Shown here one piece after another: positions 11,901-27,943 of a stretch of DNA of 27,943 nt. The notes beneath the pieces were generated by a model that saw nothing but the letters and a program-made list of their open reading frames with translations, ran no database searches and was not told the DNA's origin. Position 1 is the first letter of the stretch, and every line of letters starts with the position of its first letter. A program made the translations under genes and the position numbers. The stretch is from a virus. The DNA lies in IMG/VR virus record IMGVR_UViG_3300037847_006725, positions 1-27,943 of that record. The stretch is one strand, 5' to 3'.

Positions 11901-14881
11901 CAGAAGATTTGTTTGTCATTAAAGTCAATGACGCTTCTATTGGTTTTGCTACAAATGCAACAGATGCCCAAGCAGTCAACCCAGTCTTTGTTGGACTGAC
12001 AACAGTTGGAGTTGGTAATTCACACTTCATCACTGCTACAAAACAGAATACTAAGGCATTGGTCTCAATTGATAATATAATTCAGGCACCCATTGCAAAA
12101 ACTGGTATTGCTGCAACATTGTCATCTGATATTATTTTTGACACAACATTTGCTACAAGTGGAATCACATCTATTGCATCAAATGACATCATTAAAATTG
12201 ATGATGAATTCATGAGAGTTACATCTGTCACTGGCACTGGTGTGACATTCTTTGTACAGAGACCAATTCTTGGGTCTACAATTCAACCACACCTTACTGG
12301 TGCAACAATTGAAAAATTTGTTGGCAATTACACAATCACTGATAATACACTTAACTTTGTAAGTGCTCCTTATGGCAATATTCCTCTTTCCACAACATCA
12401 GCTCTTCCTGATGAAAGAGATTATACAGGAATCTCTACAAATTCCTCTTTCCATGCAAGAGTATTTACAAAGAGAGGTATAATTGGTTCTACAAATGAGA
12501 CATACAGTCTTAACCATGTGTTTGATGATGTATCTGAACAGTTTACAGGTGTAACAAGCAATTTCACTCTTAAATCTGATGGTGCTGATGTAACTGGAAT
12601 TACTTCCAATACAATCATGCTTGTTAATAATATTTTCCAAGCACCACAAGGAGTTCAGGCTGAGGTTGGTGAATATCAAAACTTTGAAAGTGCTGGTGTA
12701 AGCACTGTAAGATTTACTGCTGGTCTTGGAACCCCACGTGGATATGATCAAAATATTGGTGGTCTTCCAATTGGTGGAATGATTGTTTCTGTTGGTTCAA
12801 GTGGAGGTTTTGGATATCAACCATTAGTTGGTGCTGGAGGAACTGCAATTGTTTCAAATACAGGAACTATTTCAGCAATCAGTATTGGAAACACTGGTTC
12901 TGGTTATAGAACTGGTGTTGTGACTGCTTACAATGTTGGTGTTCAAACTTACTTTGGTGTTCTTCCTATTCTTGAGCATATTGGAACTGCAATTGTAACA
13001 GATGGTGGAGTAACAAGTATTGATATCACAAATCCAGGTTCTGGATATACCAATACTAATGCACCAGTTGTTGTAATTGAAGAACCATTAAGTTATGACA
13101 ATATTCCTCTCATCTATTCATCTTCATCTTCAGGTGTTGGTACTGAAGCAACTGCTAATATTAAAGTTGGTCAAGGTTCAAGCGTCATTGAGTTTGAATT
13201 AAATGATTTTGGTTTTGGATTTAAAAAAGCAGAGACATTGACAATTCCATTTGGTGGAGCAACAGGTATTCCAACTAATCCTTCACTTTCATTCAGTGAG
13301 TTCCAACTGACAATACAAGATGTTTACAGTGACAACTTCAATGGATACTCACCTGGAGAATTCCAAGTCTTGGATAGAATTGATGATCAATTTGATGGTA
13401 TTAAGAAAGTATTCCCACTAACATTAGAAGGTGAACCAATTTCAATTAGAGCATCAAGAGAATCAAATATTGAAGTAGACCAAACACTGCTTGTCTTTAT
13501 TAATGATATTCTGCAGGTTCCTCGTTTATCATACACATTTGAGGGTGGAAGTCAAATAACATTTAATGAAGCACCAAAGGGTGAGGGTTCAGGTATTCCT
13601 GAGGGTGATACATCAAGAATCCTTTTCTACAAGGGTGCAGGTGAGTCTGATGTTGTTTTTGAGGACATTCTGGAGACAATTAAGATTGGTGACACTGTTG
13701 AATTAAATGCTGATATTGATGGTGGACAAAGTATTGTCTTTGATCAGGATAAGAGAGTTGTAACTGGTATCACAACAATTGATGCTGTACAAACCAATCT
13801 CTACAAAGGACCTGGACTTGCAAATAACAGAACTGTCACAAGACCTCTTACATGGTGCAAACAAACTGTTGACAGAAAGATCAATGGACAGTTTGTTGGA
13901 AAAGATAGAGTGAAGTATGAACCTATTATTTCTCCTACTTCTTACCTTATCACATCAGTTGGTTCTGCAACAACAGAGGCATATGTTGATAGTGTAAGAC
14001 CATTGTATGATGGTGCCAATGAATCTTCAAACAGAGCATTCCAAAACTCTGTAAGTTTGATCTCACAAAATACAATTTCAGATGCCACAGCAACTGCAAC
14101 TGTTGGAACAGGTGGTACTATTTCAGCAATCACAATCACTGATGGTGGTTCAGGTTATGATTTCACACCAACAGTAACTATTGCAGGTATTGGTACATTA
14201 GGCACTCAGGCAACTGCCACTGCCTCTGTAACAGGTGGAGTGGTCACTGGTGTCACTATCACTAATGCAGGCACTAATTACACTACACCACCATTAGTGT
14301 ATATCCAACCACCAAAGATTACAAAAGAGGTAATCAATGTAGATTCATACTCAGGTGATTTTGGTGTTATTGTTGGAATTGGAAGCACAAATGCTGGTTC
14401 TCAGAAACAGTTGTTCTTTGATGTCTATATCCCAACTGATTCATTCATGAGAGACGCAAGTCTTGTTGGTACTGCTCAAACAGTAAGTGGTATTAGCACT
14501 GGTGATTTTATTGTTGTCAGAGATACATTCCTTTCTATTGGAAGTACATTTGCATCTGCTGTTGGTGTTGCTGATACTTTCCTTGACTGTGTATATCAAG
14601 TTGGTTCTGCATCCACTGAGATGGTGACTGTAACTAATGAGGAAGTTGCTGGTATTGTAACAGCAGTAAGAAGAATCAAGTGTAATGTTGACACATATGG
14701 TCCAGGTATCACACATACCAAGAGACCATTTATGGGCAACTATAGTTGGGGTAAGATTGTTTTTGAAGAGAGAACTGACACCAAGACATTTGATGCACAT
14801 AATGAAAGTGGTGTCATTGGAATATCAACATCTGGTCTGGTCCAGAGAACTAATGCTCTCAAGTTTAAAAACTATATCTAA
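2912..14881 (+). CDS. Giant gp7-like baseplate wedge / virion structural protein
   Basis: A single uninterrupted frame of 3989 residues lies between gp6 and gp8, the slot of T4 gene 7 (1032 residues). Residues about 10-300 resemble, from memory, the C-terminal third of T4 gp7. They include an N-terminal PSYVKDDFPLLVDFLEEYY-type helix and FYKSKGTDESFKILFKAVYG from residue 198, which parallels the FYSTKG...KFLFKVLY stretch of T4 gp7. The remaining ~3700 residues are a chain of small beta-rich modules: GSGY...P-V-I repeats, IGNEIIKY...G-RG modules, 'HGL..GD-V-Y' modules, and F-N-I-Q-P modules near 3050, 3236 and 3527. A YHYH-like domain lies at about 1210-1352. There is no signal peptide or membrane segment, and cysteines are rare. 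I infer that the N-terminus anchors in the wedge and the rest extends outward. The gp7 assignment of the N-terminus is fairly sure; the function of the rest is unknown. The ATG lies three bases after the gp6 stop, with no clear Shine-Dalgarno sequence. Confidence 0.85.
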   Translation: MAVDRVQIQDVISSQIPSYVKDDFPLLVDFLEEYYISQETQGGTLDLVENLDKYVQVDQLANLKTEATLASDIDQYTTSITLSVDTNFTYGFPENNGLIQIGNEIIKYSSKTETSFEGCTRGFSGVTQYVNTLVQDKQTFTTSVAASHKAGDTVKNLSVLFLQEFLTKLKTQITPGFESRPLATNLNQKNFLVGADSFYKSKGTDESFKILFKAVYGVDVDIIKPNEQLLRPSDANYVLSQDYVVEKYLGDPLDLKNRTIYQNSTSARGTVTKVEKLNVDGDFYQISIDTGYQRDIDVDGTIYGKFEPNSKTKLLNSVSIGSTIIDVDSTIDFPSSGSLALIDDLGDTIFLSYTDKNLTQFTGVTTTTTGFTKGIDVRENDYSYANVDGNQLRVRILSTLKNIEYNEENFGFSKGDRISLKTIGIEDKTFKSDWFYNVKSKLDVKNITLTNPSSNIYQIEFFETHNYVVGYNVEIIDKNLNATHTGEITSIDSNKTLVVKLAGAIPSTTLSNTFTVENQTLKGNSSKLPITKFNANVLNSYYKNGSKYLIASNSIPNYEDEIRCDDKVFTFTGKANADTLTISSSLDHGLYSGDSVYYSANTIVTTTTSDGISFTDSTVSKFTNVEEGVYFVLRVDAFSIKIAKSKADLANGKFVVPQGTVTDNKFTYFPFYEKPLASQKIYREIDEPIQEAGVFTTKPGTTGVLVNGVEVENYKSSDVIFYGGIKSFEVTSTGKDYDVINPPTINVTDGSGTGATGTLTVSGSLSELRIINKGFDFLETPKVTIDGGSPTVAAEAQVNLIEIDHKIPFQAGIVYNVLEGGVDLQDDIIGFTTFHNLRDIEQVVYDVAENPVIGLGTNQSYFAKVIDATRITLHSSFADANLGINTVALTGVGNGLQTFSTVERKKVASNIIVSNPGSGYKNQERTITAAGISTALNKFTIENHGYNTDEIIRYTPKGTTEITGISSETDYFVGKIDDNNFYLYALGTGSLDRRYYIDNNIPANITGTGTGCFNYKPITVTVSGLTGVNTSFGQEIDCTVQPIFRGSITSANVSSEGVGYGSSEILNFDRKPNVLLESGKDAQLTPVVVNGSVREVIVNKGGSGYNSPPNITVTDGKYCKLTPVLENGVIKSIIVVSGGIEYRGDSQIIVLPAGNDGSVSANLNQWTVNKVEQKFNKLTDDDCIITEGHIDNTTQLVHLYAPRNIRSVVYGNKSNGERQYQHPDLTIKTGLESDSKYHSPIIGWAYDGSPIYGPFGYDKPEGGVVRRMVSGYEAKVGSSRPPLNKYPLGFFVEDYSFTGLGDLNESNGRFCVTPEYPNGTFCYFATFQETPESVGPFKNFRKPQFPYLIGNTFQHKQNEFNFKKTSNHVDYDLVANNWRRITTPYKINSKFGGYDFIFNSNDIKEQVIEITGVSKGSVDTVGILTGGTNYKVNDRVIFKGDTDGKTARGKVTKVGGKPVNYVDIETTTITNIEFQNVGAPNKFVGFTTEPHNLINNTRMKISGLSDYFSGLDKYYNIGINTGSYVLLDDVDTSANTGIVTYFSVGGAFQYPFMRPNDIINIESEKVKVLNSEPLNNRVRVLRAQNGTTGAAHTGNVKLFQDPRSFSINVGALKTTKILKTNTEFYFDPAEALGIGSETTVGAGKTIVFSNPGAGVTNVFVPEQQIYIPNHTFSVNDSVTYHTNGGGALEVWNGQAGVAKTTLDEVSPLFVAPFDDKFIGLSTVRVGMGTTGYKGITDSTVGLFYFTNVGTNSYHSFKTNFDDVVTARAERTKVTVSTASTHGLIVNDKVSFKLNPKNEKTIVVKYDNFNRRIVFDPQTFVAGNVDTASNTIGVSTSIFKTGDKVIHTSGSPSGGLVDEKMYYVYMDSPTSIKLVEEKFELNKISPNFVNITSASGGTLSKINPTVSADSNLKFDLSDPSLSFTSNAIKYPAFEMKLYTDSLFINQFLTSHSNDFEVKTSGVVGTDGELTLDIKDMPFALYYKFVNVNDNFIIDEKKLVIDEDVISNNTIFKSISVLDGNHTVIGIGSTTYNFDLDNTSLITSYNTTSANAQYDTSSLSAFGSIEKVDLVDNNYGYTQVPGISSIRSGVGTGAILFAESKSIGKIRNQKFQSNNIGWNYPTDETLKPTANLPEIVEVNPLASFERIGITTSGRDYLVPPTLIVRDGVTNEIVDCVLTYELGDPEVTILTNSRGFYPTTPRIIATNNSNGFLFNGLTLTGDTVKLDLTATFDSDSDYPFFIGGKVYVENVSIGINTTGKGYNSEQYKHELFSVVGVQTNAGGAGAYVEFTLKDKLKTGEIAGNVISIDGARVIPEEHLPEFKPVLGKNKFSTDETVSWGLANKGVVDGYNQDTDILKIKTSSDLEIDDLVIGESSRTRGIVVKRFDFDADIKTGAGTTVNYGWTRTTGFLNDSLQRMPNNDYYQRFSYSLKSEIPYEKWDNTVGSLNHTAGFKKFSDLQVISKTEDQNLIPYVNDTEMSFIVDCIGEGDLNCWHDFDLGRENLFPVNGQTVSDTVFFENVILTDYFESKGNRVLSVDDVSHTFNSNEREEAFTNISNFESTVKFAKSLFLVQDTRFTDERQFQITTAVVDDEFAYMTSYAKLYTFPDLGHFDVSATAEEWNFQFHPIKFSLNDYFVSSFTFAFEPEAVGVAETSFGDVIHQINQEVAVPTNTVTNIVSVGTSFRSLKVMNLLVSGDEFHFAEFNIIHNNTDVSFVEYNNIDENSSVLYGGGIGTYSAEISGSDILLKFHPNTGIAATSYSQIVCTAAGQFPGITTMNTARIGSAYTSIPSDSSPTAHVLSSYDTVSASEKYSASYQVVTVEDLANNEHEMFEIGVLNSLTIPTQGITPFGVVETDSSLGTIGVSTSGDNVQITYTANPNTAVRVRSFFVDLRELSPTETFNKIEMNDGYLRAQVGNYFGTKSSVATEFELKHNGNDIFKRQFDGSSTVGVNTFTNQITLPNHFFQSGEAVKYTVTGVDERIQIVSTDFGGSVGSTTRLPEDLFVIKVNDASIGFATNATDAQAVNPVFVGLTTVGVGNSHFITATKQNTKALVSIDNIIQAPIAKTGIAATLSSDIIFDTTFATSGITSIASNDIIKIDDEFMRVTSVTGTGVTFFVQRPILGSTIQPHLTGATIEKFVGNYTITDNTLNFVSAPYGNIPLSTTSALPDERDYTGISTNSSFHARVFTKRGIIGSTNETYSLNHVFDDVSEQFTGVTSNFTLKSDGADVTGITSNTIMLVNNIFQAPQGVQAEVGEYQNFESAGVSTVRFTAGLGTPRGYDQNIGGLPIGGMIVSVGSSGGFGYQPLVGAGGTAIVSNTGTISAISIGNTGSGYRTGVVTAYNVGVQTYFGVLPILEHIGTAIVTDGGVTSIDITNPGSGYTNTNAPVVVIEEPLSYDNIPLIYSSSSSGVGTEATANIKVGQGSSVIEFELNDFGFGFKKAETLTIPFGGATGIPTNPSLSFSEFQLTIQDVYSDNFNGYSPGEFQVLDRIDDQFDGIKKVFPLTLEGEPISIRASRESNIEVDQTLLVFINDILQVPRLSYTFEGGSQITFNEAPKGEGSGIPEGDTSRILFYKGAGESDVVFEDILETIKIGDTVELNADIDGGQSIVFDQDKRVVTGITTIDAVQTNLYKGPGLANNRTVTRPLTWCKQTVDRKINGQFVGKDRVKYEPIISPTSYLITSVGSATTEAYVDSVRPLYDGANESSNRAFQNSVSLISQNTISDATATATVGTGGTISAITITDGGSGYDFTPTVTIAGIGTLGTQATATASVTGGVVTGVTITNAGTNYTTPPLVYIQPPKITKEVINVDSYSGDFGVIVGIGSTNAGSQKQLFFDVYIPTDSFMRDASLVGTAQTVSGISTGDFIVVRDTFLSIGSTFASAVGVADTFLDCVYQVGSASTEMVTVTNEEVAGIVTAVRRIKCNVDTYGPGITHTKRPFMGNYSWGKIVFEERTDTKTFDAHNESGVIGISTSGLVQRTNALKFKNYI
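5080..5280 (+). repeat. Pair of GSGY-type beta modules in the gp7-like giant
   Basis: At protein level two tandem units follow the pattern [V-S-hydrophobic-V-G-x-Y/F-x3-P-x-V/I-x-V/I]. The first is the STGKDYDVINPPTINV unit and the second the NKGFDFLETPKVTI unit. The same pattern recurs in gp8, the DUF4815 protein and gp14. The units are diverged at DNA level, so they are old or under strong protein selection rather than recent DNA duplications. Confidence 0.65.
6046..6375 (+). repeat. Triple GSGY-type beta modules in the gp7-like giant
   Basis: Three consecutive units are visible: SSEGVGYGSSEILNF, NKGGSGYNSPPNITV and SGGIEYRGDSQIIVL. Each follows a hydrophobic strand and precedes a short strand. 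They lie just upstream of the YHYH-like domain. Confidence 0.65.
6540..6965 (+). other. YHYH-like domain inside the gp7-like giant
   Basis: Residues about 1210-1352 of the giant contain WAYDGSPIYGPFGY (from residue 1244), then GDLNESNGRFCVTPEYPNGT and FPYLIG (from residue 1345). This is the order of conserved blocks in the YHYH domain family: G-x-A-x-D-G-x-P-I-Y-G-P, then a D/N-E-x-N-G-R block, then a Y/F-P-Y block. The name-giving YHYH tetrad appears replaced by FCYFA. The metal or ligand role of YHYH domains is poorly known, and its use in a baseplate protein is inference only. Confidence 0.65.
9095..9520 (+). repeat. GSGY-type beta modules, central part of the gp7-like giant
   Basis: Three diverged units are visible: DNNYGYTQVPGISSI, TSGRDYLVPPTLIV and NSRGFYPTTPRIIA. 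They keep the aromatic-x3-P-x-hydrophobic spacing of the other modules, and a linker of about 50 residues separates the first from the second. Confidence 0.5.
12059..13600 (+). repeat. Three N-I-Q-P fibre-like modules in the gp7-like giant
   Basis: A recurring motif hydrophobic-x-N/D-N/D-I-x-Q-x-P occurs at residues about 3050 (LVSIDNIIQAPI), 3236 (MLVNNIFQAPQ) and 3527 (LVFINDILQVP). The second and third copies are both preceded by a D-x-F/Q-x-G...F-L stretch. The third copy is followed by an 'ITFNEAP' strand. Motifs of this type are common in phage fibre and baseplate proteins. Confidence 0.6.
12855..13090 (+). repeat. GSGY-type modules near the end of the gp7-like giant
   Basis: Two close units are visible: ISAISIGNTGSGYRTGVV, and VTSIDITNPGSGYTNTNAPV after a spacer of about 33 residues. 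They are among the least diverged copies of the module shared with gp8 and gp14. Confidence 0.6.
14105..14320 (+). repeat. C-terminal GSGY-type module pair in the gp7-like giant
   Basis: Two textbook units are separated by a Thr/Ala-rich strand: ITDGGSGYDFTPTVTI and ITNAGTNYTTPPLVYI. They sit about 190 residues before the C-terminus of the giant. Confidence 0.7.
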
Positions 14882-14882
14882 T

Positions 14883-14896
14883 CCCCTATAAATAAA
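14883..14896 (+). promoter_or_regulatory. T4-type late promoter upstream of gp8
   Basis: An exact TATAAATA at 14887-14894 sits in the 14-mer CCCCTATAAATAAA, identical to the copy upstream of gp25. It begins two bases after the stop of the giant gene and lies 19 bases before the gp8 ATG. The predicted leader is therefore only about 10-15 bases and has no Shine-Dalgarno sequence. It would give gp8 and the genes behind it their own late transcript, independent of the 12-kb gene upstream. Confidence 0.8.
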
Positions 14897-14913
14897 CAAA
14901 AAGTCCTAATAAA

Positions 14914-16476: not shown

Positions 16477-19400
16477 ATGCCACAGGAAACTAATCTCAAC
16501 GTTGCTCCTTATTTTGATGATTTTGACGCAACTAAAAACTACAACAAAGTTTTATTCAAACCTGCCTATCCAATTCAGGCAAGAGAGTTAAATAGTATTC
16601 AATCTGTCTTACAGAATCAGATTGAAGCAATGGGTGATAACCTCTTCAAAGAGGGAAGTGTTGTCATCCCTGGAAATGCATCATATAAACCTAGATTTAG
16701 ATGTGTTCAGATACAATCTGAGTTTTTAGGAGTTCCAGTACGTTTATATCTTGATAGTCTTGTTGGTAAAAAGATTATTGGTAGAACATCAGGTGTTACT
16801 GCAAGAGTAGTTACATATATTACAAATCAACAGTCTGATAATGGTAATTATACACTGTATTTGAATTATGAGGATTCAAGTGATGATGGTAATTCTAGTG
16901 AAACCTTCTTTGATGATGAAATTCTTGTAACAGATACAGCATTAGCATTTGGTACTTCATTTATTGCTGCTGGTGAGGGTTTTGCAAATACAATTGTTGC
17001 AGCAGCAACAGCAACTGGAACTGCATACACTCAAAGTGCAGGTATCTTCTACCTCAGAGGCAATTTTGTAACTGTAGATGACCAAATCCTGATTTTGGAT
17101 CAATATGGAACTAATTCTACTTACAGAATTGGTTTCCAGATTGAAGAAAAGATCATCACAGCAGATGATGATCAATCTCTTTATGATAATGCTAGTGGAT
17201 TTAACAACTATACTGCTCCTGGTGCAGATAGGCTTCAAATCACTGCTACATTAGCAAAAAAGGCAATTAATAATTTTGATTCTCAGGGATTTGTTCAAAT
17301 CGCTGAAGTAAATAATGGACAACTGAAGAATGCCATCAATAATACTTCAAGATATAATGAACTTGGCAATGAATTAGCGAAAAGAACATTTGAAGAGTCA
17401 GGTCATTATTACATTAAAGAGTTACAGACAAAGATCAAGGAAAGTCTGAATAACCTTGAAGGAAATAGAGGTATTTACAGAGAAGATCAACTTACTCAAA
17501 GAGGAAATGTCCCCTCTGATGATCAAATGATCTATCAGGTATCACCTGGTAAAGCATATGTAAGAGGTTTTGAGACTGAAATTAAGTCCCCACAGTTTAT
17601 TGATGTTCCAAAACCAAGAACTGCCAGAAACATGGGCAGCACTGGTGTAAGTTTTGATTTTGCACCAACATTAAAGGTTAATAGAGTAACTGGTAACGCT
17701 CCAATTGGATTTAACACCACAAATACTCTTTCTTTGAGAGATCAAAGAGTTGGAGCAGATGTATTTGTAACTCCTGGTGCAGAAATTGGTAAAGCAAGAA
17801 TTTATGATTTTGCATTAGAATCAGGATCATATGATGTAGCAAATTCAAATCTAAATCAATGGGATCTCTCAGTTTTTGATATTGAGTTTAAGGCTACAGT
17901 AGAATTTAATGTTGATGCTACTCTTACCAAGTCTTCATTTGTTGAAGGAACTCAAAGTGGTGCTACTGGATTTTCTGCTGGCAATAGCACTGGCACCTCA
18001 CATGATCTATTTAATGTAAGAGGTGAATTTATAAGGGGTGAATCTGTCATTCTTAATGGTGACCCAGATACAGCAAGATTCCTTACCAATTATAGACAAT
18101 ATTCTCTTGCTGATGTTAAATCAGTACAAGCAGTTGTTGGAACAGCAAACACCTTTACTGCTGATGTTATTCAAAGTCCAATTCTGACTTTTGAAAATGC
18201 AAATATCACTGGCGCAAGTGCAGGTGTTTCAACTGTTTCAAGTCCATCAAATGGTGGAAAAACATTAGTTGGTGTGGTCACAACTGGTAATTTAATTACC
18301 TATGAGAGACCAGGACTGACTGATATTTCTATGGGAAGAGTTGTTTCTGTAGCATCAACAAATTTTGAAATTGAAGCAGTTACTACAGTTAATGGTGTTG
18401 TTGATGGTGCTCTTCCAACAACTAATTTTGATGCCAATGATCTGAGAGTTGTAACAACAAAACTCACCAATTCATCTAATAGTGGAAATGATGCTGGAAA
18501 GAGATCACTGTATTCTGTAATTCCAAACAGCAATGTCAAGTCAGTTAATCTGAATAATTCAAATATTACTTTAAGAGTTAAAAAGATTGTAAATATCAGC
18601 AATGCTGGTGAGACAGGCGCAATTAGTGTTGATGATGTTGATAATCAGACTTGGCTTTCCTTTGATGAAGAAAGATACTCTCTTCAAAGTGATGATGGAA
18701 CAACTCAAGTTCTGACAAATGACAAATTATCATTCAATACTGCAAGAACAGAATTAACCATTCAAGGATTGACTGGATCTGGACCAGCAGTTTTAGTTGG
18801 AACTGTTCTACAGAGTAAAGTTACTTCAAAGATAAAGAGAAAGAACATTGTCACTAAGATTACTGTTGACAAATCTATTGACCCAACTTCAGGAATTGAT
18901 GCAGTTGGATTTGCAGGAACAACTTTAAATGATGGTCTTGAATTTGGCACCTTCCCATTTGGAACAAGAGTACAAGATAACACAATCTCTCTGAATAGAC
19001 CTGATGCATACACTGTTCATGGAGTTTATGAATCAATTGACGTAAATGATCCTAGTAGTCCATCCTTAACTATCACAAATGCAACTGGTCCAAGTGCAAA
19101 TACAGATGACTTGTCAGTTGGAGAAGTTTTAATTGGTAACTTGAGTAGTGCAAAGGCAATATTCCTTGAGAAGATTTCTTCATCTAGAATTGCATTTGCT
19201 TATGTGAATAACAAAACCTTCCAGAATGGTGAAATTATTAATTTCAGAACATCTGGAGTACAAGCAAACGCTTCTGAAATAGATCTTGGTTCACCAAATA
19301 TCACAAAATCATTTGAATTTGACAATGGTCAGAGAAGTGACATCTATGATATTTCAAGAATTATAAGAAAGGCTGGTGCTCATACACCAACCAAAAAACT

Positions 19401-22400
19401 TTTGATTTACTATGGTTATCTTGATTATGATCCAGCTGACACTGGTGATATTACAACAGCAAACTCATATCAGAACTGTAACTATTCCACAGAAGTACAA
19501 CTTACAAATGGATTTAGAAACACTGATATTATTGACCTGAGACCAAGAGTCTCTGCTTATACAGTTGCTTCTGGAGCAAACTCACCATTTGAATTTGATG
19601 GTAGAACATTTGACAATAGTAATCATAGCACTAAGCATGTATTTTCAAGTGATGAAAGTTCAATCTACTCATATGAATACTATCTTGGTAGAGCAGATAG
19701 AATTTATCTGACAAGAAATGGTGACATTCAGGTAACTCTTGGTGCTCCTTCAGATAGACCAGAACTTCCTGATGTTCTTCCAGGTGCTTTAAACATTGCT
19801 AATGTATTCAATCCACCATACCTCTACAATGTAAGAGATTCAAGGATTAAATTTGTTGAGCATAAGAGATATCAGATGAATGATATCGCAAAACTTGAGA
19901 AGAGAATTAAGAACCTTGAATACTATACTTCACTGAATCTCCTTGAGCAAAATACACTCAATACTTTTGTCTCAGACGCAAATGGATTAAACAGATTTAA
20001 ATCTGGTATTTTTATTGATAACTTCTCATCCTATACACCACAAGATGTTACCATTGGTGTCAGAAACAGTATTGACCCAGTAGAAAAGATTTTAAGACCT
20101 GCACACTACTCAACTGCTGTCAATCTGCAGGTTGGTAGTGCTGCCATTCCTGGAATTGGAACTGTTACAACACCAGATACAGATTCAAGATTTACATCTC
20201 TCTCAGGTCAAAATGTTAGAAGAACTGGTAATGTAATTAGTTTGAATTTTACTGAAGTTGCTGAAATCTCACAACCTTATGCTACTAGAGTTGAGAATGT
20301 AACTCCATTCCTGATTGATTTCTATGAAGGAAGTATTGCTCTCAACCCAACCACTGATGTTTGGGTAAGTACACTTCCACCTGAAACAAATGATGTGGTT
20401 ATTGAGGGTAACTTTGAATCAGTTGCTCAAGCACTTCAGGCAGAATTCACAGAGGGTGATGATGGTCTTAGAAGTGGTGTAGCACCAACATTATGGAATT
20501 CTTGGGAGACAACTGGAATTAATCTTGATCTTTCTGGAACAACTCAGACTGAGACATTTAATGCTGCTTCTAGAAGAACTGGAAGAACAACAGGTGATCT
20601 TGGACTTGGTGGATTCAATGCCAACCTCTCAACTATTAATTCAACCACCATTGATGGAACAATTAATATTGAGCAAAACAGAACAGGTGTTCAACAGACT
20701 GTAAATGAAGTTCTTACAGAAGCAGCATCACTTGGTACAAGGATTGTAAACAGATCCATCTCCAACTTCATGAGGGAGAGAAATATTGAGTTTACTGGCA
20801 CTAGACTGAAGCCAAACACTCAGGTATTCTCATTCTTTGATAATGTAAACGTAACTCAAAGATGTACTCCTAAACTTATTCAAATTGCCATGAACACTGG
20901 AACATTCCAGGTTGGTGAGGAAGTTGTTGGATCAATCTCTGGAGTAGATGGTGCTTCAATTAGATTTAGAGTTGCTACTGCTAACCATAAGTATGGTCCA
21001 TATAACAATCCAACTGATTTCTATGATAGCAATCCCTATCTGAGAAACAATGCCATGCCCTCAGTTTACTCTGCTGAGAGCACAGTTTTGAATGTTGACA
21101 CTGCAAGTCTTGCATCAGAAGAAAGTCCTACATTTAGAGGTCATGTTGTTAATACAATGATCCTTAGAGGTCAAACAAGTGGTGCTGAAGCAACTGTAAC
21201 CAATGTAAATCTTATCACAGATAGAGTTGGTACAATACAGGGTTGCTTCAATGTTCCAGGTGAGGGAGATTTTTCAGAACAAACATTCAACACTGGAAGA
21301 AATGTATTCAGGTTGACAAGTAGCGGTATTAATAGTCAGGTTGAAGGCACAACTACTACATCAGCAGAAGAAGTCTTCTATTCTCAGGGTGATATTGATA
21401 CAACTGAAGAAGTAACACTCTCACTTAGAAATGCAAGAGTAACTACAGTAGAAGTAGAAGCAGAGCAGCAAACAGTTGAATCTGATGTAAACTTTGACAT
21501 CATCAATAGCAGGACATTAAGACCTACACCTCCCCCTCCACCACCACCAAGACCACCTAGAAGAGGTGACCCACTTGCACAGACCTTTAAGATTGATGCT
21601 AAGAATGGTATCTATGCATCTAAGGTAGATCTGTTCTTCCAGACAAAAGATGATACTCTGCCTGTTACTGTTCAGATTAGAGAAACTACATTAGGAACAC
21701 CAAACCAGACAATTCTTGGATATTCTGAGGTAACTCTGAATCCTGATGATGTTAATATATCTGAAGATGGTACAGTAGCAACAGAATTTAGATTTGAATC
21801 ACCAGTATATCTCAAACCTGGTGTTGATTATGCTCTGGTTGTTATGGCAAGTGTCACAACCTATAACCTGTGGATTTCAAGACTTGGTGAAGCAGATGTA
21901 ACAACTCTTGCAACAGAGTCTGGAAGAGTTCTGGTTACTGAGCAACCATTGTTGGGTTCATTGTTCAAGTCACAAAACTCACGTATTTGGACTCCAAGTC
22001 AATATGAAGATATGAAGTTTGTTCTTCATAGATGTGACTTTGTTGGATCTGGCAATATTCAGTTCTACAACCCAGATCTTGATGAAAAGAATGAGGCAAT
22101 TGCACCTGGTTCTGTTATTGCTGAATCAAGACAAATCAGTGTTGGTATTGGAACAACAGTTAATCAGACAGGTGTCACTGACACTCTTGTTGTTGGCAAT
22201 AGAGTTATTCAGAAAAACACTGGAGCATTTGGTTACCTCAAACAGTTCTCTGGTATTGCCACTGGACCAATGCAAATAACTGCTGCAGGTATTGGATTTA
22301 CTCCTTCTGCAGGAACATTAACTTATGCTGGTGTTGCATTGACATCAGTGACTGGAAGAGGACGTGATGCAACTGCTGACATCACTATTCAAGATGGTAT

Positions 22401-24042
22401 TGCAATTGGTGCAACTATTAATGCTGGTGGTAGTGATTATGTTGTTGGTGATATTGTTTCACCTATTGTTATTGGATCAAAAGAACTTGGTGGTGGTGCA
22501 AGATTTACTGTTGGTATTATCACTGCATCAGATGCACTACTTTTGAAAAATGTTCAGGGAGAATTCAGCACAAATGCTAATGACTACCTTGAGTATGATT
22601 CAACTGCTGGCACAAGACTGTCACTTAATGCTGGTGTTGGTGGTTCAGTTGTTCCAACCACATCAGTTGTCATTACAGATGGTCTTCACTTGAAGATTAG
22701 ACAGAGAAATCATGGAATGTACTCTACCACAAATAAAGTTAGAGTAAGACAAGTGACAGGAAGTGGAAGACCTACAAGTCTTCTGACAAATGTCACAAGA
22801 GACGCTACTGCAAACATTGCTATTGCAAATACAACTGGATTTGATACTTTTGAAAATGTAGGTGTATCAAACACCAATCCAGGATATGTTCAGATTGGAG
22901 ATGAAATCCTCAAATATGAGGGAATCACCTCTGGTTCAGGTGTAACTGGAACATTGACTGGAATTGGTAGAGCAGTTGATAGTGTTGCTTCCTCTCATGC
23001 AACTAATGACCTTGTTACTAAGTATGAGTTCAATAATGTATCACTTAGAAGAATCAACACAGTTCACAACCTGGTTGATGTAACTAAACCAGAACCACTT
23101 GCAATTGATCACTACCATATTAAACTTAATATGGCAGAGAATGGAACTGATAGAACTGGTATTGGTACATTCAGACCAGTTACAAACTATCTGACTGATG
23201 GACACACAAATATTCAAACTGCAAAAGGAACATATAACATTCCTTATTCAGTAATTGTTCCTGACATTACATCAACTGCACCTGAGGGTGCATATATCCT
23301 TGCTTCTGCAAGATCCATCTCTGAAACTTCTGTTGATGGTACTGAAGTTGCATATATTGATCAAGGGTTCCAAGATATTCAATTCAATAAGAAGAATTAC
23401 TTTGAAACTCAGAGAATGGTTGCTTCTGAAATAAACCAAGAGGAAATGCTGGATGAACTCCCTGGCAACAAGTCATTCACTCTCAATCTTGATCTTCTTA
23501 CCTATGATGCAAGAATCTCTCCAATGATTGATTTGAATCACTCCTCTGTTGTATTTGTGTCCAACAGAGTTGATGGTCCAATCACTGACTTTGCCACTGA
23601 TCCAAGAGTTGTTGGAATTCCACAGGATCCTAACAGCATGATTTACGTGACAAAGCAAGTTACACTTGAGAATCCTGCTACATCACTGAAAGTGTTCATT
23701 GATGCCTTCATTGCAAATACAAGTGATGTAAGAATGTTCTATGCACTTGATCAAGATGTAAGTGCAAATGAAACTAAGTTCAAACCATTCCCTGGTACTG
23801 ATAACATTGACCCATATGGTCAAGTTATTAATCCAACCAGATCAAATGGTACACCTGATGAGAAGAAGGAGAAGTCTGATAAGTTGACTCAGACACCTGC
23901 TATCAATGACTTTACTGAATATAAATTCACCATGGACAACCTTCCTCCATTCAAGTCATTCAGACTCAAACTGATTGGAACATCTGTAAACCAAGCAGTG
24001 GTTCCACAATTTAGAAACCTTAGAGCAATTGCATTGGCATGA
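16477..24042 (+). CDS. DUF4815 giant virion structural protein
   Basis: The protein has 2521 residues. The N-terminus is a clear DUF4815 domain: PYFDDFDATKNYNKVLFKPA, then PIQARELNSIQSVLQNQIEA and GDNLFKEGSVV, within residues 10-65. A later helix-rich stretch (about residues 1135-1165) holds HKRYQMNDIAKLEKRIKNLE. Residues 1682-1696 form a Pro/Arg linker with seven consecutive prolines (1685-1691), followed by GDPLAQTF. That begins a conserved beta domain (about 1697-1820, to WISRLGE) known from many marine T4-like phage tail proteins. Further on are a GSDY-type repeat, an IGDEILKY...G-GRA module and a C-terminal beta domain ending in RNLRAIALA. It occupies the position of T4 gp9-gp12, so a role at the baseplate periphery or as a fibre or fibre anchor is likely but unproven. 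The ATG lies six bases after gp8. Confidence 0.85.
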   Translation: MPQETNLNVAPYFDDFDATKNYNKVLFKPAYPIQARELNSIQSVLQNQIEAMGDNLFKEGSVVIPGNASYKPRFRCVQIQSEFLGVPVRLYLDSLVGKKIIGRTSGVTARVVTYITNQQSDNGNYTLYLNYEDSSDDGNSSETFFDDEILVTDTALAFGTSFIAAGEGFANTIVAAATATGTAYTQSAGIFYLRGNFVTVDDQILILDQYGTNSTYRIGFQIEEKIITADDDQSLYDNASGFNNYTAPGADRLQITATLAKKAINNFDSQGFVQIAEVNNGQLKNAINNTSRYNELGNELAKRTFEESGHYYIKELQTKIKESLNNLEGNRGIYREDQLTQRGNVPSDDQMIYQVSPGKAYVRGFETEIKSPQFIDVPKPRTARNMGSTGVSFDFAPTLKVNRVTGNAPIGFNTTNTLSLRDQRVGADVFVTPGAEIGKARIYDFALESGSYDVANSNLNQWDLSVFDIEFKATVEFNVDATLTKSSFVEGTQSGATGFSAGNSTGTSHDLFNVRGEFIRGESVILNGDPDTARFLTNYRQYSLADVKSVQAVVGTANTFTADVIQSPILTFENANITGASAGVSTVSSPSNGGKTLVGVVTTGNLITYERPGLTDISMGRVVSVASTNFEIEAVTTVNGVVDGALPTTNFDANDLRVVTTKLTNSSNSGNDAGKRSLYSVIPNSNVKSVNLNNSNITLRVKKIVNISNAGETGAISVDDVDNQTWLSFDEERYSLQSDDGTTQVLTNDKLSFNTARTELTIQGLTGSGPAVLVGTVLQSKVTSKIKRKNIVTKITVDKSIDPTSGIDAVGFAGTTLNDGLEFGTFPFGTRVQDNTISLNRPDAYTVHGVYESIDVNDPSSPSLTITNATGPSANTDDLSVGEVLIGNLSSAKAIFLEKISSSRIAFAYVNNKTFQNGEIINFRTSGVQANASEIDLGSPNITKSFEFDNGQRSDIYDISRIIRKAGAHTPTKKLLIYYGYLDYDPADTGDITTANSYQNCNYSTEVQLTNGFRNTDIIDLRPRVSAYTVASGANSPFEFDGRTFDNSNHSTKHVFSSDESSIYSYEYYLGRADRIYLTRNGDIQVTLGAPSDRPELPDVLPGALNIANVFNPPYLYNVRDSRIKFVEHKRYQMNDIAKLEKRIKNLEYYTSLNLLEQNTLNTFVSDANGLNRFKSGIFIDNFSSYTPQDVTIGVRNSIDPVEKILRPAHYSTAVNLQVGSAAIPGIGTVTTPDTDSRFTSLSGQNVRRTGNVISLNFTEVAEISQPYATRVENVTPFLIDFYEGSIALNPTTDVWVSTLPPETNDVVIEGNFESVAQALQAEFTEGDDGLRSGVAPTLWNSWETTGINLDLSGTTQTETFNAASRRTGRTTGDLGLGGFNANLSTINSTTIDGTINIEQNRTGVQQTVNEVLTEAASLGTRIVNRSISNFMRERNIEFTGTRLKPNTQVFSFFDNVNVTQRCTPKLIQIAMNTGTFQVGEEVVGSISGVDGASIRFRVATANHKYGPYNNPTDFYDSNPYLRNNAMPSVYSAESTVLNVDTASLASEESPTFRGHVVNTMILRGQTSGAEATVTNVNLITDRVGTIQGCFNVPGEGDFSEQTFNTGRNVFRLTSSGINSQVEGTTTTSAEEVFYSQGDIDTTEEVTLSLRNARVTTVEVEAEQQTVESDVNFDIINSRTLRPTPPPPPPPRPPRRGDPLAQTFKIDAKNGIYASKVDLFFQTKDDTLPVTVQIRETTLGTPNQTILGYSEVTLNPDDVNISEDGTVATEFRFESPVYLKPGVDYALVVMASVTTYNLWISRLGEADVTTLATESGRVLVTEQPLLGSLFKSQNSRIWTPSQYEDMKFVLHRCDFVGSGNIQFYNPDLDEKNEAIAPGSVIAESRQISVGIGTTVNQTGVTDTLVVGNRVIQKNTGAFGYLKQFSGIATGPMQITAAGIGFTPSAGTLTYAGVALTSVTGRGRDATADITIQDGIAIGATINAGGSDYVVGDIVSPIVIGSKELGGGARFTVGIITASDALLLKNVQGEFSTNANDYLEYDSTAGTRLSLNAGVGGSVVPTTSVVITDGLHLKIRQRNHGMYSTTNKVRVRQVTGSGRPTSLLTNVTRDATANIAIANTTGFDTFENVGVSNTNPGYVQIGDEILKYEGITSGSGVTGTLTGIGRAVDSVASSHATNDLVTKYEFNNVSLRRINTVHNLVDVTKPEPLAIDHYHIKLNMAENGTDRTGIGTFRPVTNYLTDGHTNIQTAKGTYNIPYSVIVPDITSTAPEGAYILASARSISETSVDGTEVAYIDQGFQDIQFNKKNYFETQRMVASEINQEEMLDELPGNKSFTLNLDLLTYDARISPMIDLNHSSVVFVSNRVDGPITDFATDPRVVGIPQDPNSMIYVTKQVTLENPATSLKVFIDAFIANTSDVRMFYALDQDVSANETKFKPFPGTDNIDPYGQVINPTRSNGTPDEKKEKSDKLTQTPAINDFTEYKFTMDNLPPFKSFRLKLIGTSVNQAVVPQFRNLRAIALA
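21520..21564 (+). other. Polyproline/arginine hinge in the DUF4815 protein
   Basis: Codons 1682-1696 read RPTPPPPPPPRPPRR, immediately before the GDPLAQTF domain. Such a run cannot form regular sheet or helix. It probably acts as a stiff spacer between the N-terminal half and the C-terminal beta domains. The DNA mixes CCT, CCC and CCA codons, so it is not a simple slippage tract. Confidence 0.7.
22355..22475 (+). repeat. GSGY-type beta module in the DUF4815 protein
   Basis: One unit, GATINAGGSDYVVGDIV, is preceded by a strand rich in Ala/Thr/Ile. It follows the same hydrophobic-G-G-S-x-Y spacing as the copies in the gp7-like giant and gp14. Confidence 0.5.
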
Positions 24043-24260
24043 GTTACATACCTGTTGAGGGCAATAAAAATTTGTCCAGAGATGGCAAAAATAATGCCAT
24101 CATTAATACAAATAAAAATGAATTTCATGCATACATAAAAAATAGGGAGAAACTTAAATCTAATACAGATAGAGTTGACTCCCTTGAGAAAAAAGTTGAT
24201 GATTTGAAAGGTGATCTAGATGAAATCAAATCAATGTTAAAAGCAGTAATCAATGGCTAA
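24039..24260 (+). CDS. Small coiled-coil protein of unknown function
   Basis: This 73-residue protein is highly polar and Lys/Asn/Asp-rich. The last ~35 residues form a heptad pattern (RVDSLEKKVDDLKGDLDEIK, then SMLKAV) typical of a short oligomerising coiled coil. The start overlaps the stop of the DUF4815 gene as ATGA, and the end overlaps the start of the next gene by eight bases, so expression is probably coupled to both. Its position between the large virion genes suggests a small structural or chaperone-like accessory, perhaps a trimeric whisker-like or fibre-linking piece. That is inference only; I recognise no family. Confidence 0.75.
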   Translation: MSYIPVEGNKNLSRDGKNNAIINTNKNEFHAYIKNREKLKSNTDRVDSLEKKVDDLKGDLDEIKSMLKAVING

Positions 24261-24639
24261 CAACACTATCACCTTTAATCCAGATTCTAATGCTGCGTAT
24301 GGTGTAAACCTTACAATATTAGAAGGTGCTGATTTCAAATCTACATTCAAAGTAAAAAAGGAGAATAAATCTTCCTTTGATTTGAGTGGTTATGCAATTC
24401 ATGCAAAGATGAAGAAGAGTGTTGCTATTGGAGCATCAGATGGTGGTATTCAAGGATTTACTGCTGGTATAACAAGTGCTGCTGCTGGTGAATTTAATAT
24501 TTCTCTTACAGACACTATCACAAAAGACTTGAAACCAGGGAGATATTATTATGATATCAATGTTGTTAGTTCAGCATCAACAGTTTATAAGATGGTGTCT
24601 GGAAATGTAGTAGTAGAAGGGGGTCTCCCAGTCTCCTAA
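24253..24639 (+). CDS. Small beta-sandwich virion protein (BppU-N-like pattern)
   Basis: The protein has 128 residues. The order of motifs, ILEGADFKSTFKVKKENKSS, then FDLSGYAIHAKMKKS, GEFNISLTDTITKDLKPGRYYYDI and a final VSGNVVVEGG strand, follows a pattern common in small phage virion proteins: 'G-D-F..F.V....DL.GY...A.I', then 'G...L.L....T..L.PG.Y.YD'. BppU N-terminal domains of Siphoviridae baseplates follow a similar pattern. I infer a single beta-sandwich that decorates or adapts another virion part. It has no signal peptide. It overlaps the coiled-coil gene by eight bases and ends 24 bases before gp13. Assignment to a virion is by neighbourhood and pattern, not by a known homologue. 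Confidence 0.75.
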   Translation: MANNTITFNPDSNAAYGVNLTILEGADFKSTFKVKKENKSSFDLSGYAIHAKMKKSVAIGASDGGIQGFTAGITSAAAGEFNISLTDTITKDLKPGRYYYDINVVSSASTVYKMVSGNVVVEGGLPVS

Positions 24640-24663: not shown

Positions 24664-25527
24664 ATGGCACAACCTTCTTCAAGACAAGAACTTATAGATT
24701 ATTGCTTAAGACAGTTAGGTGCCCCTGTCTTAGAAATTAATGTCGCTGAAGAACAACTTCAAGACTTGATGGATGATGCCATTCAACATTTTCAAGAAAG
24801 GCATTATGATGGTGTTGAAAAGACATTTTTAAAATATCAAATTACTGAAAAAGATGTTGAAAGGGGTAAGGCAAGACCTCCAGGAGCAAAAAGTGCTACC
24901 ACGCAAACTGGAATTACATCAACTACAGTAAATACCACAGTTGGTGGTGATTCTACAAACTTTGCTTACTATGAGAACAGCAATTATATTCAGATTCCAC
25001 CACAAGTAATAGGTATTGAAAAGATATTTAAGTATGATGATGCTCAGGCAGCAAGTAGTTCCAATATGTTCAGTTTCAAGTACCAACTGTTCTTGAATGA
25101 CATTTACTACTTTGGAAGCACTGACTTGTTATCATATCAAATGTCAATGAGTTATCTGGAGACAATGGATTATCTCCTGAATACTCATAAGAGAATTAGA
25201 TTTAATATTAGACAAGATAGAATGTATCTTGATGTTGATTGGGATAATTTAAAGGAAGATGAGTTTATCATTCTTGAATGCTACAGAGCACTGAATCCTA
25301 ATGACTATACAAGAGTGTATAATGATCCATTCTTGAAGAGATATTTAACTGCTCTTATTAAGAGACAATGGGGTCAAAACCTTATCAAATTCACTGGTGT
25401 AAAACTACCTGGAGGTGTTGAGTTTAATGGAAGGCAACTCTTTGATGATGGTCAAAGAGAACTTGATGAAATCAAGGTTGAAATGCTAAGTAAGTATGAG
25501 TTACCACCAATGGATATGATAGGTTGA
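24664..25527 (+). CDS. 13: gp13-like neck protein
   Basis: The protein has 287 residues (T4 gp13 has 309). The N-terminal block ELIDYCLRQLGAPVLEINVA, then EEQLQDLMDDAIQHFQERHYDG, matches the gp13 family pattern (R-R-L-G-A-P-x-I-x-V-E-L, then D-x-x-x-x-A, then Y/F-x-x-x-H-x-D-G). The C-terminal block KRYLTALIKRQWGQNLIKF, then LPGGVEFNGRQL, and a final LPPMD match the family end. In T4, gp13 and gp14 seal the DNA-filled head and provide the docking site for the tail. An AAAGGA sequence 11 bases upstream supports the start at 24664. The gp14 start follows four bases after the stop. Confidence 0.92.
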   Translation: MAQPSSRQELIDYCLRQLGAPVLEINVAEEQLQDLMDDAIQHFQERHYDGVEKTFLKYQITEKDVERGKARPPGAKSATTQTGITSTTVNTTVGGDSTNFAYYENSNYIQIPPQVIGIEKIFKYDDAQAASSSNMFSFKYQLFLNDIYYFGSTDLLSYQMSMSYLETMDYLLNTHKRIRFNIRQDRMYLDVDWDNLKEDEFIILECYRALNPNDYTRVYNDPFLKRYLTALIKRQWGQNLIKFTGVKLPGGVEFNGRQLFDDGQRELDEIKVEMLSKYELPPMDMIG

Positions 25528-25531
25528 TGTT

Positions 25532-27943
25532 ATGCTCAATCCATATTTTCTAAACAACTCTAAGCAAGAGCAGAATCTCATACAAAGTCTGGTCAACGAA
25601 CAGTTGAAGATGTATGGGATTGAAATTTATTACATCCCAAGAAGGTATGTCAAGAAAAACACTGTCATCAGAGAGGTAATTCAATCTGAGTTTGACAATG
25701 CATATCCTATAGAGGCTTATCTTGACAGTTATGAGGGATATGGTGGTCAGGGAACAATCTTATCAAAGTTTGGTATTGAAGAACAAGATGATTTGACATT
25801 AGTTGTGTCAAAAGATAGGTATGAAAATTATATTAGTCCACTGATTAAAAATATACCAAATATTGAATTAGCAACCAGACCAAAAGAAGGTGATTTAATT
25901 TACTTCCCACTTGGTGACAGGTTGTTTGAAATTAATTATGTTGAGCATGAGCAACCATTTTATCAACTTCAGAAGAACTATGTGTACACTCTGAAGTGTC
26001 AACTCTACAGATATGAGGATGAGGTTCTTGATACTGGTGTAGAGACAATTGATGATGAAATTGAGCAGATTGGATATATTCAGAAACTTCAATTGATTGG
26101 TGTTGCATTGCCAGCAACTGCATCAATTGCAGGCATTTGCTCTGGTGCTATTAGTGGCATCAATATTACTAATATGGGAGGTGGTTATACATCACACCCA
26201 ACAGTTGCCATTTCATCTGCTCCTGCAGGTGGTGTAGATGCTGAGGCAGTGGCAGTTCTTACTAGTGATTACATTGGATGTGATGGAACAAAGGGTGGAA
26301 CTGTAACAGCAATTCATCTGACAAATCCTGGTTGTGGATATACTGTAAACCCAATCATAACAATCACAGGAGGAGGAGGTGGTGGTGCCACTGCTGAGGT
26401 TGTAGGTATTGAGACTATTGGAGGCATACACCCAATTACTGTCACCTCAGGTGGTAGTGGGTATGTTGGTGCTCCCACTGTTGGTATATCAACCCCAAAA
26501 CATGTAGGGGCATTAGGAACAGCAAATTTAGATTCTCCAATAGTTGGTGGAGGTGTAAGTGTTATTTCTGCTAATGTTACTCTTGGTGTAGCAACTTATC
26601 TATTCCCAGGAGGAGTATTTGGTGGTGCATTCTATAAAGAGGCACCCCCAGTTGTATTTGATTTACCAACAGGAAGTGGCAATAATGCTCAGGCAACAAC
26701 CACTCTTGATAGCATTGCAGAAACTGGAGGAACAGTAGAAACTATTGGATTGACAACTGGAGGCAAATTCTATACAAGTGTTCCAGGAGTTACACTTACT
26801 CATCCAGGAACAAGTTTTGCTTCTGCAACCATAGGAATTGCTGGTTCATCTATAAATCCAAGTTCTATTGCCTTTAGCACTACAGGTAGAGCATATAGAA
26901 CTGCACCTACTGTTGCAATCACTACATCTGGTACTATGATTGCACCAACAGTCACTGCTATTGGTATTGCAACAATACATCCTATCACTGGTATAGTCAC
27001 TGCAGTTTCATTTAATAATGATGATGCTTGGGCAGTGGGAACAAGTGCAACAATTGGTGCAGGATATACTGTTGCTCCTACAATATCTTTCAGTGGAAGT
27101 CCATCACCAATTCAAGCAACAGCATCTGTCACTGTTTCTGTTGCAGGAACTGTTAGTTCCATTAGTATTGGAAATAGTGGATATGGATATATTACTGCCC
27201 CAACTGTAACTATTGGTGGTCCTGGTGGTGGAAATGAACAATTTAGGGCACTTGGTTTTACAACTATTAGATTCAATTCAATATCAACAACTGGAACCTT
27301 ATCTACCACATCTACAACAATTACAGGCATTACCACTACAAATATAGTTGTTGGTGATAGAGTCAGACTTGCAGTAGGGCATGATAAATTTTATAACTTT
27401 GTTAAAGCAGGAACTTTTGTAAGTGGAATTGGTGCTGGTTCAATTACTCTTAATAAAGCATCAACAAATGTTGGAATTGCAACTTCAGTGTTTGAATTTG
27501 GTATTGATCAATGTGGTATTGTTACAGGCATTGGAGTTTCATATGGTGGAGGAGGTTATTTGTCTCCACCTGTAGTAACAATCTCTAATGATTCTAGATA
27601 TAAGAATTATATTGATGTTCAACCAGGTGTTACAACAGCAATTGGAGTGGCAAACACTAGTGCTGCTGGTGTTGTTACAAGTGTAACAATTACAAACAGT
27701 GGTAGTCAATATGTGTTAACACCAACTATCACAATTTCTGAACCTGTCTCTACAAGCACTGGTTCATTTATATTCAATGAAGTTGTAACTGGTGCAACCT
27801 CTGGAACAACTGCAAGGGTTAAGTCTTATGATGCTGCTAATAATATTCTTGAGGTGTCTATTGTTGATGGCACATTCACACCAGGTGAAACAATTGTTGG
27901 TTCAGAATCTGGTGCTAGACACTCAATGAAAACACAAGATAAG
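25532..27943 (+). CDS. 14: gp14-like neck protein with long repeat extension (partial)
   Basis: The frame is open from the ATG at 25532 to the window end, 804 codons without a stop, so the C-terminus is missing. Residues 1-200 are gp14-like: MLNPYFLNNSKQEQNLIQSL, IYYIPRRYV, YPIEAYLDSYEGYGGQG, then TRPKEGDLIYFPLGDRLFEI, and QKNYVYTLKCQLYRYEDEVLDTG. T4 gp14 is only 256 residues. From about residue 200 onward the protein consists of GSGY-type beta modules and ends, as far as visible, in a TSG-A-A-V unit (FNEVVTGATSGTTARVKSYD). I infer that the N-terminal part does the neck job with gp13 and the extension projects from the neck, perhaps in place of whiskers. AGG at 25521-25523 is a weak ribosome binding site. 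An alternative ATG at 25527 hits a stop after eight codons. Confidence 0.88.
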   Translation, partial: MLNPYFLNNSKQEQNLIQSLVNEQLKMYGIEIYYIPRRYVKKNTVIREVIQSEFDNAYPIEAYLDSYEGYGGQGTILSKFGIEEQDDLTLVVSKDRYENYISPLIKNIPNIELATRPKEGDLIYFPLGDRLFEINYVEHEQPFYQLQKNYVYTLKCQLYRYEDEVLDTGVETIDDEIEQIGYIQKLQLIGVALPATASIAGICSGAISGINITNMGGGYTSHPTVAISSAPAGGVDAEAVAVLTSDYIGCDGTKGGTVTAIHLTNPGCGYTVNPIITITGGGGGGATAEVVGIETIGGIHPITVTSGGSGYVGAPTVGISTPKHVGALGTANLDSPIVGGGVSVISANVTLGVATYLFPGGVFGGAFYKEAPPVVFDLPTGSGNNAQATTTLDSIAETGGTVETIGLTTGGKFYTSVPGVTLTHPGTSFASATIGIAGSSINPSSIAFSTTGRAYRTAPTVAITTSGTMIAPTVTAIGIATIHPITGIVTAVSFNNDDAWAVGTSATIGAGYTVAPTISFSGSPSPIQATASVTVSVAGTVSSISIGNSGYGYITAPTVTIGGPGGGNEQFRALGFTTIRFNSISTTGTLSTTSTTITGITTTNIVVGDRVRLAVGHDKFYNFVKAGTFVSGIGAGSITLNKASTNVGIATSVFEFGIDQCGIVTGIGVSYGGGGYLSPPVVTISNDSRYKNYIDVQPGVTTAIGVANTSAAGVVTSVTITNSGSQYVLTPTITISEPVSTSTGSFIFNEVVTGATSGTTARVKSYDAANNILEVSIVDGTFTPGETIVGSESGARHSMKTQDK
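26140..27740 (+). repeat. Array of GSGY-type beta modules in the gp14 extension
   Basis: At least five units can be read: NMGGGYTSHPTVAI, NPGCGYTVNPIITI, SGGSGYVGAPTVGI, then GAGYTVAPTISF / NSGYGYITAPTVTI, and later GGGGYLSPPVVTI and NSGSQYVLTPTITI. Each is preceded by a strand of type V-x-x-I-x-V/L/I. The array continues at uneven spacing over about 530 residues. This is the densest array of the module in the window. Confidence 0.75.

Follow-up and report, generated by a model that had tools for sequence, protein, structure and literature searches.

The window analyzed here, a virus record of 27,943 bases, carries a T4-type baseplate and neck gene cluster. Besides gp25, gp6 and gp8, the cluster encodes a baseplate wedge protein of 3989 aa, two further proteins of 2521 and 128 aa, and the neck proteins gp13 and gp14; the window itself stops within gp14. 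The modules and domains of the wedge protein, gp13 and gp14 described below are all on the plus strand. The order gp13-gp14-gp15-gp16 agrees with that of T4: gp13 is in the window, and gp15 and gp16 lie behind gp14 in a near relative (contig L088). Based on gp6, the nearest records are the Synechococcus phages RN05-S, RB11-B, S-B05 and S-B43 (63.6%) and the Prochlorococcus phage P-TIM68 (61.2%). A marine Kyanoviridae-like T4-type phage is the best reading of the source, as part of an overall explanation that we consider probable. The photosystem family PF00124 is present in one of 23 related contigs, and PF00504 is above the cut-off in none of 16, with one match below it; all of these contigs are fragments.

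Several neighboring genes are of interest in their own right. A ferredoxin-family protein (5-376; phrog_3704 match) adjoins the baseplate genes. The 2521-aa protein (16477-24042) matches phrog_358, a family of unknown function, over its full length, and we take it to be, perhaps, VrlC. That name occurs in the accessible part of PMC7029224. Phage S-B05 has, shortly upstream of gp13, a long protein annotated as a ‘virulence associated protein’. The 128-aa protein encoded between the 2521-aa gene and gp13 (24253-24639) matches phrog_1084, whose function is unknown, and phrog_3304, a family of L-shaped tail fibre assembly. In L088, a 791-aa tail-fibre-like protein (13199-15574) is found between gp16 and the next large ORF. 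In pelagimyophages, a host-recognition hypervariable region adjoins gp14 (PMC7029224, accessible part).

The gene for the gp14 neck protein (25532..27943) is a single ORF of 804 codons without a stop up to the end of the window, which bears out the earlier note's description of a frame that runs through a repeat region and leaves the window. Its true end lies further downstream: in the closest relatives (L020, L087 and L088) gp14 has 836 aa and a normal stop, the C-terminus of L020 reading ...ADDIIDFSKTNPFGMP. Thus, the window truncates gp14 about 32 codons early and the 3' end is missing. We compiled 162 gp14 loci, two of them from the window itself and four from named phages, with some contigs present twice. 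The gp14 N-terminus occurs in 154 of them, and in 97 the gene has both start and stop. Of these complete genes, 36 encode 460-513 aa, one encodes 657 aa, and 60 are single-frame genes of 834-855 aa that come from many contigs, some present twice. In a further 46 loci the gene has a stop, but its aligned first position is not a start codon; these genes, 28 of at least 600 aa and 18 shorter, were excluded from the complete count. The other 11 loci have no stop. One gene counted within the 36, that of L147 (760-2298), has a gp14 frame of just 513 aa, though its locus matches the long cassette over 1402-2910, either a true truncation or a sequencing error.

In favor of an artefact (fused genes or an assembly join) stands that the window, being a fragment, breaks off within gp14; the earlier note had raised a join or a lost stop codon near 26100. 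However, 60 of the 97 complete genes are long and in a single frame, and identity is even across the junction: gp14 of the window and gp14 of L088 give a gapless alignment in which 770 of 804 residues agree, with nucleotide identity of 85-97% in all 14 bins of 60 codons and no break near codon 190. A gene fusion, lost stop or assembly join at this place is ruled out, so that we leave the artefact reading, already refuted, practically no probability. The long frame is one real gene.

That note had also taken residues 1-200 for ordinary gp14. The identity is confirmed, but the neck (stopper) domain ends near residue 180 (residues 1-180; 25532..26071). Residues 1-183 match the Pfam family T4_neck-protein (PF11649; E 1.3e-34, 120.2 bits vs a cut-off of 25), residues 2-167 match the solved T4 gp14 (E 1.5e-29), and phrog_460, which together with phrog_679 represents the gp14 family, is matched at E 8.7e-123. 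The AlphaFold2 monomer model of L088 gp14 (44 sequences; mean pLDDT 70.8, pTM 0.43) has the stopper beta-barrel fold of T4 gp14 (9lu4_M; Z 9.5, rmsd 3.6, 94 aligned residues), and other phage neck proteins rank next. In T4, gp14 forms a hexameric ring, and its C-terminal region (residues 178-256) contacts gp15 in the virion (PMC12270204, a preprint, accessible part).

Behind the neck domain lies a block of modules (about residues 191-744; 26102..27763) with ten GSGY motifs, defined as G-x(1,2)-Y-x(1,4)-P-x-[VIL]-x-[IFVL] and located at residues 216, 267, 308, 365, 411, 452, 509, 550, 673 and 724. Shuffled sequences (n=200) contain 0.09 such motifs on average and two at most. The spacing is 41-57 residues, save for one gap of 123 residues that contains a beta domain of about 75 residues (582-657; 27275..27502). 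This domain matches 9n71_A (Z 7.6, rmsd 2.9, 72 aligned) and 8vjh_B (Z 6.7); its weak likeness to phage tail domains, with Z under 8 and unrelated Uba1 rows also near Z 6, is a lead only. Tandem Repeats Finder detected no arrays, and hence no simple tandem repeat, in the DNA. The module block matches no Pfam family at E 5, and a sequence search of the cassette described below against the PDB gave nothing beyond chance (E 0.42 and 0.83).

In the L088 model and its structural matches, the block interrupts a barrel after what would be its first strand, near residues 181-190 (26072..26101). The remainder of the barrel, placed by relatives and by the model, corresponds to residues 745-804 of the window (27764..27943). 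Structural matches spanning residues 175-808 or 181-808 cover 68-80 aligned residues at mostly middling Z (5.8-8.5); they indicate that the strand near 181-190 and strands 745-808 may make one barrel around the block. Since the flanking strands appear to share one barrel, the modules are an insertion. As judged by alignment, with support from the model, the GSGY modules are inserted between the neck-ring domain and a conserved C-terminal region. The long repeat extension of the earlier note is therefore a real, long modular region, but not a terminal extension, with a conserved barrel and a peptide behind it. That C-terminal peptide, IDFSxxNPFGMP, is conserved in relatives (L147 was left out of its profile) and lies beyond the window end. 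Its resemblance to T4 residues 213-230 is only suggestive, as the comparison ranks third of 1001, tied with one shuffle and below two others.

The fold search with L088 probed mainly residues 23-164 and 582-657, and the other modules may thus have an unlisted fold. A model of a short-class gp14 (mean pLDDT 61.9) is poor for the neck and good for the block (residues 181-430). Outside the neck, its top-scoring rows are eIF2-gamma barrels (Z under 7), which seem to reflect just a common arrangement. Matches of the long model in BFVD to other cyanophage structural proteins, headed by M4PYL0 (762 aa), were discarded for their low TM-scores over long spans.

We then examined how gp14 length varies among relatives. 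Class frequencies are drawn solely from 80 loci fetched by gp13, with no selection on gp14 length; the other locus sets were chosen for their resemblance to the long gp14 or to its cassette. The long gp14 is a minority class in this gp13-anchored sample: 70 of the 80 genes have a stop (10 run off contigs), of which 63 encode 457-490 aa and seven 809-865 aa. Across cyanophages and uncultured kin, lengths step through 308, 390, 470, 657 and 763 aa up to 809-865 aa. The gp14 of metaG-MbCM1 has 308 aa and no motif, yet retains the barrel region and the NPFG end. One motif each is found in S-RIM2 and S-IOM18 (390 aa), two in P-TIM68 (471 aa), three in P-SSM2 (470 aa), four in the short-gp14 contig L027 (462 aa), five in Sf-FS3 (763 aa, the longest among the named records compared), seven in S-CAM9 (657 aa), eight in S-PRM1 (656 aa) and ten in L088 (836 aa). 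Length and motif count are not strictly parallel because the motif undercounts diverged modules. The flanks of the block are conserved across these relatives bearing 0-10 motifs. The expectation that neck proteins are usually compact thus fails in this group, where even the non-long genes reach the 457-490 aa given above and an isolate reaches 763 aa.

No phage record covers 80% of the window's gp14, and residues 312-663 have no match at E 1e-5 among 50,697 phage records, very close relatives possibly lying outside this set. When L138, another long gp14, is the query, phages S-8S53 and S-8S56 give alignments of 37% identity that cover 84% of the query, and isolates thus carry related modules. 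In Synechococcus phage Sf-FS3 (L232, 1-2638), sugar and prolyl-hydroxylase genes are directly upstream of gp13. Searches of the open-licence articles in PMC returned no title or abstract start that describes a long or modular gp14, and the accessible parts of PMC3797505, PMC9602691 and PMC10665884 hold nothing decisive. Here, we report the gp14 of the window as a genuine variant, seen repeatedly, within a known protein family, with no earlier description in the literature covered.

Close genomes differ in whether they carry an exchangeable cassette within gp14. L088 (long) and L027 (short) are collinear, with nucleotide identity of 88% upstream and 85% downstream of a swap within gp14, in which 1367 nt of L088 (9939-11305) replace 242 nt of L027 (5875-6116); a second, smaller break follows gp16. 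The gapless alignment to L088 places the counterpart of this exchangeable cassette at 26403..27769 of the window. In 73 of 80 loci, the cassette shares one reading frame with a sequence that matches the gp14 N-terminus, and the remaining seven frames are open at the 5' edge of their contigs. A tree was built from the initial 555 nt of gp14, with 83 rows including the window (48 long, 35 short) out of the 154 loci that match the gp14 N-terminus. Incomplete genes, genes with no start codon where the alignment places it, and duplicates of a start already included were dropped, and L147 and S-CAM9 were left out. By a raw parsimony count, on what is a quickly built tree of recombining genes, it contains nine changes between long and short. 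In this tree, the short L027 falls into one group with two long members, the window and L020 (support 95).

Long genes also differ among themselves. Identity between the window and L020 is 95-98% at codons 1-300, 61-84% at 301-720, 97% at 721-780 and 90% at 781-804. By contrast, identity between the window and L088 is 85-97% throughout. Between long genes, then, cassette alleles alone are swapped while the N-terminal flank stays 95-98% identical, and the cassette is probably exchanged by homologous recombination within conserved flanks.

The same type of module is encoded elsewhere in the window. The baseplate wedge protein (2912-14881; phrog_2885) has gp14-type GSGY modules in its C-terminal part, at residues 3613-3827 (13748..14392); the protein as a whole matches phrog_460 at E 7e-30. 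This hints that virion genes exchange modules. Such modules in the same genome, the ease with which repeats recombine and the variation in gp14 length between lineages would fit a near-neutral accretion by recombination among virion-gene GSGY modules, with no specific role. We regard this as quite improbable, as the dN/dS of the cassette is 0.164-0.372 over 55 pairs, gp14 falls into two sharp size classes, and 14 cassettes have a fixed module order with a mean column identity of 72%.

For the same 55 pairs, made from 11 long genes, median dN/dS is 0.034 in the neck domain, 0.354 in the shared modules, 0.285 in the cassette and 0.202 in the C-terminal barrel; the pairs are non-independent and of related sequences, recombination violates the model, and median dS is near 0.75. 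The shared modules thus exceed the cassette. All parts of gp14 are below 1, which argues that the cassette is a maintained protein. On these estimates it evolves under purifying selection yet about eight times faster than the neck ring domain. Positive selection on gp14 was reported in one wild cyanophage lineage (PMC5112629, accessible part); its authors warn that the number of signals equals the false-positive rate, and for this reason we do not use it as proof.

The adjacent neck protein gp13 (24664..25527) aligns without most of T4 gp13 residues 190-239, domain III, to which T4 fibritin binds (PMC12270204, preprint, accessible part). Eight residues stand against the 50 of T4 in all 161 alignment rows with residues, the window included (one zero-length row was counted apart). 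The domain is absent from eight of eight named cyanophage gp13 proteins. Among Vibrio phages, PVA8 keeps a 54-residue stretch at this position and K351 is without it. The gp13 of S-CAM9 (L084, 1871-2992) has 373 aa vs 268-287 in the other cyanophages compared; it too is without the T4 domain III and has an extra domain elsewhere. Fibritin_C (PF07921) was matched in none of 12 records (the window and 11 related contigs, all fragments), with the T4 control record positive, in line with the earlier remark that no wac-type whisker gene is visible.

These absences, together with the location of gp14 at the neck, could mean that the module block functionally replaces the T4 whiskers, forming neck arms that hold or sense the long tail fibres. 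However, S-RIM2, S-IOM18, ACG-2014d and MbCM1 have no gp13 domain III either, and their gp14 has 308-390 aa with 0 or 1 motif; in K351 it has 224 aa. Absence of the domain does not, therefore, require a long gp14, and whisker loss alone does not explain the modules. We consider this alternative doubtful, if worth keeping in view. Rather doubtful, too, is the broader scenario in which uncultured marine T4-like phages would have replaced the gp13/wac whiskers by six gp14-borne arms of beta modules, the cassette being a recombining neck locus, both present/absent and allelic, that resembles a receptor- or environment-sensing locus and is not at the tail.

The insertion just precedes the C-terminal region, which in T4 contacts gp15 (PMC12270204, accessible part), and in phage Milano a collar links neck and sheath (PMC10491603, accessible part). 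The block might thus be a structural brace that strengthens the head-tail joint by packing against gp15 and the upper end of the sheath, or against the capsid vertex. A brace seems unlikely to us, given that the cassette evolves fast and that gp15 and gp16 of the long L088 and the short L027 are collinear at 85% identity, so that the presence or absence of about 375 residues leaves the partners recognizably the same.

We thus favor, as the probable explanation, a T4-type gp14 of a marine Kyanoviridae-like phage into which ten beta-rich GSGY modules and one further beta domain are inserted and exposed as a neck decoration. This explanation builds on the established integrity of the gene, the insertion site, the module series, the exchange of the cassette and its purifying but fast evolution. 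By analogy with the T4 hexamer, each virion would have six copies of gp14, whose blocks may point away from the neck at the gp14/gp15 level and decorate the surface; the pLDDT and pTM given above are too low to fix how such an arm would project. Their partners may be fibres or something external to the virion. Exchangeability would be expected of a part that faces outward, towards the host surface, the tail fibres or the environment, and not the DNA channel. The putative role most likely lies in making contacts or handling fibres at the neck, the lineage being free of wac whiskers.

The phage neck is usually regarded as conserved plumbing. Here, a core head-closure protein bears an exchangeable cassette that is gained and lost between close genomes and evolves faster than the ring domain. 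Cassette turnover suggests selection on the outside of the neck, and comparison among relatives, which carry no, few or many modules, suggests that the gp14 block could be a swappable outer decoration at the head-tail joint. Phage records with gp14 of 308-763 aa exist, several of them from isolates, and the role of the modules is thus testable now.

The gp14 of the window shares with T4 gp14 (head closure Hc2; PF11649) the neck fold, the gene order gp13-gp14-gp15-gp16 and sequence over residues 2-167. However, the T4 protein has 256 aa and is free of modules, and the T4 whiskers attach to gp13, not gp14. The gp14 proteins of isolate cyanophages (P-SSM2, P-TIM68, S-CAM9, S-PRM1 and Sf-FS3; phrog_460) have the neck domain, GSGY modules, C-terminal barrel and NPFG peptide in common with it, and are shorter. 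T4 fibritin (wac) whiskers would be comparable as neck appendages if the gp14 arm projects; fibritin is, in contrast, a separate protein bound to gp13, and neither its C-terminal domain nor the gp13 binding domain was found in the records searched here. The neck fibres of cyanophage A-1(L), gp80-82, would be comparable as a modular neck appendage, but they are encoded by separate genes and sit on a pentadecamer ring (PMC10966104, accessible part), whereas the modules described here are an insertion in the head-closure protein itself.
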